Below, one piece after another: positions 19,615 to 20,432 of a DNA stretch of 60,487 nucleotides. The stretch is taken from positions 87,199 through 147,685 of the IMG/VR virus record IMGVR_UViG_3300018481_000002; one strand, given 5' to 3'. The stretch's first letter is position 1. The number at the start of each line of letters is the position of its first letter. The notes under the pieces were generated by a model. It did not search any database. It had not been told where the DNA came from and was given only the letters and a program-made list of their open reading frames with translations. Position numbers and translations under genes: made by a program. Origin of the DNA: a virus.

Positions 19615-19735
19615 TCGCACGCCTCTTGGGCTACCGAACGCACACCTTGCCCTACCTAGCCAGGCCGAACCCGGCCCTGCCTAGCACTGCCTTGCCCAAC
19701 CTAGCCATTGCCTAGCCTGGACTTGCCGAGACCGA
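19615..19735 (+). repeat. Degenerate GCCNN pentamer array, left arm
   Basis: Written in fives from about 19645, the sequence runs GCCCT ACCTA GCCAG GCCGA and on, with GCC (or a one-base variant) recurring every five bases over roughly 90 bases. CTAG tetramers are common. It is the reverse complement in character of the array at 19790 and faces it across a promoter. No reading frame fits. Confidence 0.8.
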
Positions 19736-19750
19736 CAGAGTATCGAACAC

Positions 19751-19780
19751 TTGAACGAAGGCCAAGTGTCGGGGTACTGT
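19751..19780 (+). promoter_or_regulatory. Promoter candidate between the repeat arms
   Basis: TTGAAC, 18 bases, TACTGT. The -35 lies in TCGAACACTTGAACGA, repeated nearly exactly at 20321. CACTTG and CAAGTG form a dyad over the spacer. It could transcribe the right repeat arm and the initiator tRNA. Confidence 0.6.
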
Positions 19781-19789
19781 TCCTTCGCT

Positions 19790-19902
19790 TGGCGTAGCTA
19801 GGCGGGGCTTGGCAGGGCCTGGCACCGCATGGCTTGGCAGAACAAGGCTCGGCCTGGAGGGGCTCGGCTAGGCCCGGCAGGGTGGGGCAAGGCTAGGCAG
19901 GG
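19790..19902 (+). repeat. Degenerate GGCNN pentamer array, right arm
   Basis: In fives the sequence reads GGCTT GGCAG GGCCT GGCAC CGCAT and continues with the same phase for about 20 units up to the TATAACT before the tRNA. G-G-C is the fixed part, the two following bases vary. With the left arm it could form a very long imperfect hairpin in DNA or RNA. Confidence 0.85.
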
Positions 19903-19919
19903 TATAACTAGATCAGCGA

Positions 19920-19996
19920 CGCGGGGTGGAGCAGTTCGGTAGCTCGTCGGGCTCATAACCCGAAGGTCGTGGGTTCAAATCCCACCCCCGCTACCA
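19920..19996 (+). tRNA. tRNA-fMet (initiator, CAT anticodon)
   Basis: Full cloverleaf with encoded CCA. Acceptor CGCGGGG/CCCCGCT leaves the first pair (C1-U72) unpaired, and the anticodon stem ends in three G-C pairs (GGG-CTCATAA-CCC): both are initiator hallmarks. D arm GAGC/GCTC, T arm GTGGG-TTCAAAT-CCCAC. TATAACT at 19903 could be a -10 box. It sits between two GGCNN pentamer blocks. Phages rarely carry an initiator tRNA. Confidence 0.93.
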
Positions 19997-20001
19997 AGAC
20001 G

Positions 20002-20053
20002 AGGCGAGGCCGGGCAGGGCCTGGCACCGTGGGGCACGGCAAGGCAGGGGTTC
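20002..20053 (+). repeat. GGC pentamer array, third block
   Basis: Directly after the tRNA the sequence reads GAGGC GAGGC CGGGC AGGGC CTGGC ACCGT GGGGC ACGGC AAGGC: GGC every five bases in the same orientation as the right arm. Confidence 0.8.
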
Positions 20054-20107
20054 CCCACCCGCCCTAACAGACGACGCTCCTATCTCGACTACCTAGTAGG
20101 AGGCGAC

Positions 20108-20314
20108 ATGAGGGGACTCTTCCCTGAGAAGGACCTGCCCAGAGCGTTGGGTGTGAAGGTCTTCGGTGAGCCCAAGGCGCAGGCTCAGATCAACAGCCCG
20201 GACAAGGCGGGTCCGACCATCGCCAGGGACAAGACGTGCTGGTGTGGCCGTCCGTATCCGCATGACTGGCTGGGCCAGGAGGACGGTGCCGCGCATCCGA
20301 GGTACCCGGACTGA
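20108..20314 (+). CDS. Small protein with CWC motif
   Basis: 68 residues after TAGGAGG. A Lys/Pro-rich first part (FPEKDLPRALGVKVFGEPK) leads to KTCWCGRPYPHDW, a possible metal-binding turn, then an acidic-polar end. I do not recognise it. It lies between two repeat blocks and is transcribed with the island. Confidence 0.6.
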   Translation: MRGLFPEKDLPRALGVKVFGEPKAQAQINSPDKAGPTIARDKTCWCGRPYPHDWLGQEDGAAHPRYPD

Positions 20315-20328
20315 TTTCCCTCGAACAC

Positions 20329-20358
20329 TTGCACGAGGTGGTTTGTAGCGTCTACAGT
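20329..20358 (+). promoter_or_regulatory. Promoter candidate before the RAMP-like gene
   Basis: TTGCAC, 18 bases, TACAGT, preceded by TCGAACAC. Same architecture and same upstream sequence as the promoter at 19751, which makes both more credible. Confidence 0.6.
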
Positions 20359-20368
20359 GCACACACCA

Positions 20369-20432
20369 TGGCATGGCAGAGGCTCGGCTAAGCGCGGCAC
20401 TGCACGGCCAGGCAGAGGCACGGCAAGGCAAC
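20369..20432 (+). repeat. GGC pentamer array, fourth block
   Basis: ATGGC ATGGC, one six-base slip, then TCGGC TAAGC GCGGC ACTGC ACGGC CAGGC, another slip, ACGGC AAGGC. It is the leader between the promoter at 20329 and the TTG-started gene, so it is probably transcribed. Confidence 0.75.

Follow-up and report, generated by a model that had tools for sequence, protein, structure and literature searches.

The question raised by this locus is what a noncoding DNA can be that carries GGC, or its complement GCC, at every fifth base with two variable bases in between, and what an initiator-like tRNA does in its midst. We analyzed it in a window of 60,487 nucleotides, the stretch from position 87,199 to 147,685 of the 147,685-base IMG/VR record IMGVR_UViG_3300018481_000002; coordinates are those of the window unless given as genome positions. 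A sequence-only reading had noted the pentamers and knew of no described element of such form. One does exist: vrRNA arrays of this form are described for VIPR, a system reported in a 2026 bioRxiv preprint that combines guide RNAs (vrRNAs) with Vipr, which is a small RAMP, and the accessory protein Vap (PMC13142463). By the account of that preprint, a vrRNA has 9 to 16 units, each made up of GGY and two hypervariable bases (NN), the dinucleotides read DNA with a gap of one base from one to the next, and the arrays are expressed as RNAs of approximately 100 nt that are bound by Vipr (PMC13142463). From comparisons of sequences and structure models, we consider it very probable that the arrays analyzed here are the vrRNA guide genes of a SUSP1-like (type II-like) VIPR in an uncultivated phage of approximately 148 kb.

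GGY arrays with a period of five bases surround the tRNA

Direct counting at a spacing of 5 found GGC at 8 of 10 in-phase positions at 19791–19860 and 19998–20003, and GCC at 7 of 10 at 19649–19659, whereas the maximum in 30 random sequences of whole-window length and the same dinucleotide composition was 4 of 10. The claim that GGC or GCC recurs every five bases around the initiator tRNA was thus borne out, with in-phase counts far above those of composition-matched sequence. Within the arrays, the spectrum of spacings was almost purely 5, 10, and 15, and the rest of the window had no preference for 5. Calling arrays with GGY accepted and rare slips allowed gave the following map, in which the coordinates of the earlier reading, its inversion around about 19751, and its run of approximately 20 in-phase units all proved correct.

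19566–19599, no strand assigned: GC-rich hairpin flanked by T/A-rich sequence, lying after the upstream gene (which ends at 19544) and before the minus-strand array
19633–19733, minus strand: putative vrRNA array, 17 GGY units, divergent from array 1, with GGGCAAGG in its 3' part
19745–19780, plus strand: promoter-like module, GAACACTTGAACGA ... TACTGT, immediately 5' of array 1
19791–19903, plus strand: putative vrRNA array 1, 22 in-phase units, 19 of them GGY
19920–19996, plus strand: complete initiator-like tRNA, separating arrays 1 and 2
20003–20051, plus strand: putative vrRNA array 2, 9 GGY, beginning 6 nt past the tRNA
20108–20314, plus strand: small ORF of 68 aa, between arrays 2 and 3
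20323–20358, plus strand: promoter-like module again, GAACACTTGCACGA ... TACAGT, immediately 5' of array 3
20370–20429, plus strand: putative vrRNA array 3, 10 GGY, two one-base slips, ending in GGCAAGGC shortly before vipr
20463–21044, plus strand: vipr gene, 193 aa, TTG start, RAMP protein with the glycine-rich loop GLGDHRKIGGYGRF
21041–21553, plus strand: vap1-like gene, 170 aa, with a 4-bp overlap with vipr, phrog_5926
30140–30225, minus strand: further vrRNA-like array that runs into a GC-rich terminator-like hairpin (about 30145–30113)
Genome 77165–78436: five more arrays of the same 147,685-base record, outside the window and approximately 30 kb away

Four noncoding GGY/NN arrays of 9 to 22 units lie within 850 bp upstream of vipr, and array 1 exceeds the published range of 9 to 16 units. 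Inspection by eye found GGCAAGG near the 3' end in 9 of the 10 arrays of the phage genome. Apart from this recurring motif, no common structured 3' tail was found in the arrays of this phage, and the tRNA follows array 1 only. The small ORF between arrays 2 and 3 had no PHROG match, and Pfam gave only a sub-threshold zinc-finger match.

Arrays 1 and 3 are preceded by the same module, GAACACTTGNACGA with a TACNGT that comes 18 bases behind the TTGNAC box, and the two copies (the array 1 module and that at 20323) have a 14-mer in common. The 147-kb record has just two instances of the arrangement TTGNAC-N(17–19)-TACNGT, at 19751 and 20329, and both stand directly 5' of an array. The promoter proposed earlier at 19751 is weak by the sigma-70 consensus, with no formal sigma-70 match reported at this module, but its TTGNAC/TACNGT pair recurs nowhere in the record except before array 3. 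The minus-strand array reads away from the 19751 region and toward the hairpin at 19566–19599, which has one terminator-like site on the plus strand and, judged from its sequence, could end transcripts arriving from both sides.

The arrays adjoin genes for Vipr and Vap1 homologues

The gene that starts 33 nt downstream of array 3 encodes a homologue of Vipr. Its product matched the "SUSP1 Vipr protein" of the PDB (36pp_D) with an E value of 1e-37 and SUSP1 Vipr by phmmer with an E value of 4e-40, the two proteins are approximately 39% identical, and it falls in phrog_4652. Homology to the described Viprs is joined by the glycine-rich loop and, in the structure model (pLDDT 94.9), by a RAMP (RRM core) fold; the top PDB matches were Csm3/Cas7 proteins (best E 2.6e-6, prob 1.00), and nearly all of the PDB matches listed were type III/VII Cas7-family RAMPs. 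A second vipr was not found in the 147-kb record. The overlapping gene downstream is a vap accessory gene, its product being homologous to that of the SUSP1 gene downstream of vipr, vap1 (phmmer E 9.8e-8). Separately, a tmRNA-like RNA of 82 nt lies on the plus strand at 21661–21742, 108 nt downstream of the vap gene; it comprises the tRNA-like domain only (RF00023, 55.6 bits, E 2e-20), there is no space for a tag-coding part, and a long inverted repeat (about 21563–21657) precedes it.

The locus resembles the VIPR of Escherichia phage SUSP1 (type II; PDB 36pp) in its Vipr homologue, its Vap1-like neighbor, the GGY/NN arrays beside vipr, and in being phage-borne. SUSP1-clade vrRNAs are described in the preprint as having an invariable structured 3' tail with a pseudoknot (PMC13142463). 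The SUSP1 vrRNAs are GGT-rich and carry this pseudoknot tail, whereas the arrays here are GGC-rich with a short GGCAAGG ending; in addition, one array here is longer, a tRNA stands between arrays, two arrays are on the opposite strand, and five lie approximately 30 kb away. With class 1 CRISPR RAMPs (Csm3/Cas7) the Vipr model shares its fold, but no CRISPR array was seen at the locus, and the guide is gapped here and contiguous in CRISPR. CRISPR-Cas, with its identical direct repeats, unique spacers, and cas genes, was rejected for this locus. The sequence-only reading had likewise denied a CRISPR array, rightly so: the pentamers have two free bases, no long identical repeat is present, and the neighbors are vipr and vap. 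Its view that the pattern is neither coding nor a simple satellite, and that the two variable bases matter, also holds.

Related loci share the arrangement and reproduce the skip rule

When IMG/VR was scanned for runs of six GGCNN units, at least 120 stretches came up, and among those listed, which were picked solely for their GGCNN runs, most encode a Vipr homologue. With Vipr as the query, bacterial or archaeal genomes yielded 37 loci and viral contigs at least 448, of which 80 were kept; a Vipr ORF is present in 204 of 244 loci, which are identified by L numbers where needed. Absence of the pattern from close relatives had been named as a sign against it, and the opposite was seen, with arrays adjoining vipr in many related loci. 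Cultured carriers of vipr are cluster F mycobacteriophages and Gordonia phage MakoManhole. A "distant" BLAST search with the window DNA matched only the tRNA and weak array-like DNA in cluster F mycobacteriophages, and these weakly matched phages proved to carry vipr. The Vipr tree pairs the window protein with that of L131 as its sister (support 100/98), and by terminase the nearest named phage is GX15bay (mangrove soil), 41% identical. In the cluster F phages Donkeykong, Brocalys, and Saal (L122, L123, and L124), vipr is annotated as hypothetical and comes right after a long GGCNN array, and both adjoin the repressor/antirepressor region. The record named Staphylococcus phage SA1 (GU169904) carries, at 91697–92254, a vipr of the enterobacterial Felix-O1-like kind, and this record may be mislabelled or misassembled.

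The 1-nt skip rule was reproduced with 429 distinct arrays, which gave 8 distinct matches of at least 19 of 20 bases over ten units outside arrays, several of them near-copies of one target and none from the window. Controls with a skip of 0, a skip of 2, and shuffled unit order gave 0, 2, and 0 to 2 (mean 0.5) matches, respectively. For the phage genome itself, IMG/VR was searched for exact patterns of 9 units with the 1-nt skip; those taken from array 1 and from two of the arrays at genome 77–78 kb had 1, 5, and 0 matches, the 5 belonging to one family of AT-rich contigs. These candidates were rejected because agreement outside the 9-unit seed was near chance (9/26 and 9/24), and the IMG/VR search found no credible natural target for the guides of this genome.

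A complete initiator-like tRNA separates arrays 1 and 2

The tRNA at 19920–19996, called by ARAGORN and scored at 65.5 bits by Rfam, has a CAT anticodon, three G-C pairs in the anticodon stem, and an encoded 3' ACCA. It starts 16 nt after array 1, ends 6 nt before array 2, and has the same direction as both. A complete initiator-like tRNA between vrRNA arrays is new as far as we have checked. The 244 loci contain no second clear case of a full tRNA abutting an array; a call made by ARAGORN in L166 overlaps one of the minihelices described below. The word "tRNA" does not occur in the main text of the VIPR preprint (PMC13142463). We propose this tRNA as a candidate processing signal. A further tRNA-like match on the minus strand at 1651–1721 was given by Rfam (39 bits) and missed by ARAGORN.

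It is also conceivable, at odds that we put at roughly one in three, that the tRNA lies between the arrays by accident and serves in translation only. Its score is that of a functional-looking initiator, the phage has other tRNAs at 21.9 and 22.5 kb of the window and at genome 80.6 kb, and the want of a second full tRNA abutting an array in the 244 loci agrees with chance placement. However, the tRNA abuts arrays on both sides in the same direction, and L131, the closest relative by the Vipr tree, has tRNA-like minihelices exactly at its place.

tRNA-like minihelices separate arrays in relatives

In L131, MakoManhole (L132), and L029/L155 (Piscicoccus intestinalis), the arrays are separated by minihelices of approximately 45 nt, each with an acceptor-like stem, a GG-containing linker that resembles a D-loop, and a T-arm with a TTCRANN loop; MakoManhole (PQ184807) has three of them, which lie with its arrays at 58.4–58.6 and 59.9 kb. 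In L131 and L029 the minihelices escaped ARAGORN, and a scan of eight loci with Rfam gave a name to none. Counted over the 244 loci, strict T-arms no farther than 150 nt from an array numbered 30 on the strand of the array and 1 on the other, where the 30 include the window tRNA once and three T-arms counted twice because L029 and L155 are the same prophage. When 25 minihelices were aligned, 91.7% of the pair cells were standard, compared with 58% after shuffling and at most 55% with slid partners, and the covariation score was 0.804, a value that none of 500 shuffles reached, versus 0.175 for shuffled alignments. These figures flatter the structure because the T-stem and T-loop had been used for selection and the acceptor had been chosen as the best partner. 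The linker GG, which was outside the selection criteria, is nearly invariant.

A covariance model of the minihelix (R1; a 12-bp stack of acceptor and T-arm, a T-loop, a GG linker, and no anticodon arm) found copies beyond its training set in L184, L176, L178, L238, L005, and L223, and also in the Bacteroidota-type loci L165, L166, and L162, always on the strand of vipr. Two of the latter (L165, about 2850–3500, and L162, about 4560–5200, from a record labelled Bathyarchaeota) have minihelix-punctuated arrays of AGYNN instead of GGYNN. In the window, R1 found no minihelix and matched only the T-arm of the tRNA (E 0.27), the full tRNA standing in the place of the minihelix. In L006 (about 3660–3960), one T-arm minihelix lies between arrays together with hairpins whose TGTGAAA loop likewise agrees with a T-loop pattern (UGNRANN).

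Minihelices are not specific to VIPR, an idea that we rejected upon finding hits in 8 of 395 actinobacterial genomes, only one of the 8 with an array and vipr within 1.5 kb; the other 7 genomes have stand-alone copies without either within this distance. These copies (L257, L259, L260, L261/L266, L262, L263, and L264; e.g., GCCCCGATGGTCGTAGGCCGGGTTCGACTCCCGGCCGGGGC) mean that the minihelix is enriched at VIPR arrays yet not confined to them. On the Vipr tree, minihelix-bearing loci, labelled by a strict motif that misses copies, are more clustered than in shuffles; a single origin was unsupported, with 9 changes.

The minihelices and the tRNA could instead be a structured 3' tail, or cap, of the guide that is recognized by Vipr like the pseudoknot of SUSP1, and not processing signals, which we regard as rather unlikely. 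A conserved 3' structural tail does belong to SUSP1 vrRNAs in the preprint's description (PMC13142463). The 39 minihelix copies divide into 18 flanked by GGY arrays on either side, 9 with an array upstream only, as expected of a tail, 5 with one downstream only, and 7 in loci whose repeats escape the GGY detector. Three observations speak against a role purely as a 3' tail: the 5 copies that have their array on the 3' side alone, several arrays that end without a minihelix (the last of L131 and the first of L132), and the bona fide tRNA that takes the minihelix's place in the window.

Other readings of the arrays

Among the possibilities listed in the sequence-only reading, an RNA scaffold element comes close to the guide arrays preferred here, and a long hairpin, a binding lattice, and a packaging site do not. 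That the phased GGC is a DNA element, such as a protein-binding lattice or a packaging or replication site, is very improbable: the 5-bp spacing is regular and the arms are inverted around a palindromic promoter region, but the arrays adjoin vipr in many loci, their NN content differs from array to array, and excess targets were found under skip-1 decoding only. Primase-site arrays, G-quadruplexes, ribbon-helix-helix operator lattices, and packaging sites were set aside upon the Vipr homology. We give next to no credence to a long imperfect hairpin or other structured RNA formed by the arrays themselves, which the high GC content and the GCCNN left arm facing a GGCNN right arm might suggest, and rejected it, since the plus-strand arrays and the minus-strand array at 19.6 kb fold no more stably than shuffles (z from -1.25 to +0.14; the 30-kb array reached -3.25 with its terminator hairpin included) and the two arms diverge, each reading away from the promoter-like region.

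Discussion

Taking the arrays as vrRNA guide genes, we infer transcription, processing, DNA binding, and silencing in the window phage from its sequence. Each array would give rise to a transcript in which GGY and NN alternate, and Vipr, as a small RAMP related to Cas7/Csm3, would coat this RNA at the GGY positions; the NN dinucleotides would pair with DNA, one base being skipped between them (xNN), and this pairing would silence competing mobile elements. Host RNase P may cut the 5' side of the tRNA or minihelix and so free the 3' end of the upstream guide, and a tRNA 3' endonuclease may cut the 3' side and free the 5' end of the downstream guide, with the intact tRNA as the separator in the window and minihelices in relatives. 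Bacterial RNase P binds the stack formed by the acceptor and T-stems, and a minihelix of 12 bp is accepted as well (PMC11221534). Because the minihelices resemble such minimal substrates, host tRNA-processing enzymes are plausible candidates for cutting the guides apart, and the release of guides at tRNA or minihelix separators has, in our estimate, an even chance of being correct.

Two systems offer parallels. VIPR arrays interspersed with hammerhead ribozymes exist according to the main text of the preprint (PMC13142463), and there, too, an RNA element able to cut the precursor separates the guides; unlike these ribozymes, the tRNA of the window and the tRNA-like minihelices of relatives would need host enzymes. 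The polycistronic tRNA-gRNA arrays made for Cas9 place tRNAs between guides for release by RNase P and RNase Z (PMC6297969), but they are engineered and carry CRISPR guides, whereas the arrays here are natural and carry putative vrRNAs, so that the likeness is an analogy only.

VIPR is newly proposed as an ancestor of class 1 CRISPR, and this locus very probably places it in a large uncultivated phage. Together with relatives from two phyla, the window shows that tRNA or tRNA-like elements can stand between guide arrays. Should these separators serve as processing signals, phages would already be using the tRNA enzymes of their hosts to release guides, which would be a natural counterpart of engineered tRNA-guide arrays and would add a new class of small tRNA-like RNA. 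It may equally well be true as not that phages borrow the tRNA-maturation enzymes of their hosts in this way, punctuating their guide arrays with whole tRNAs, as in the window, or with minihelices, as in actinophages and Bacteroidota elements.
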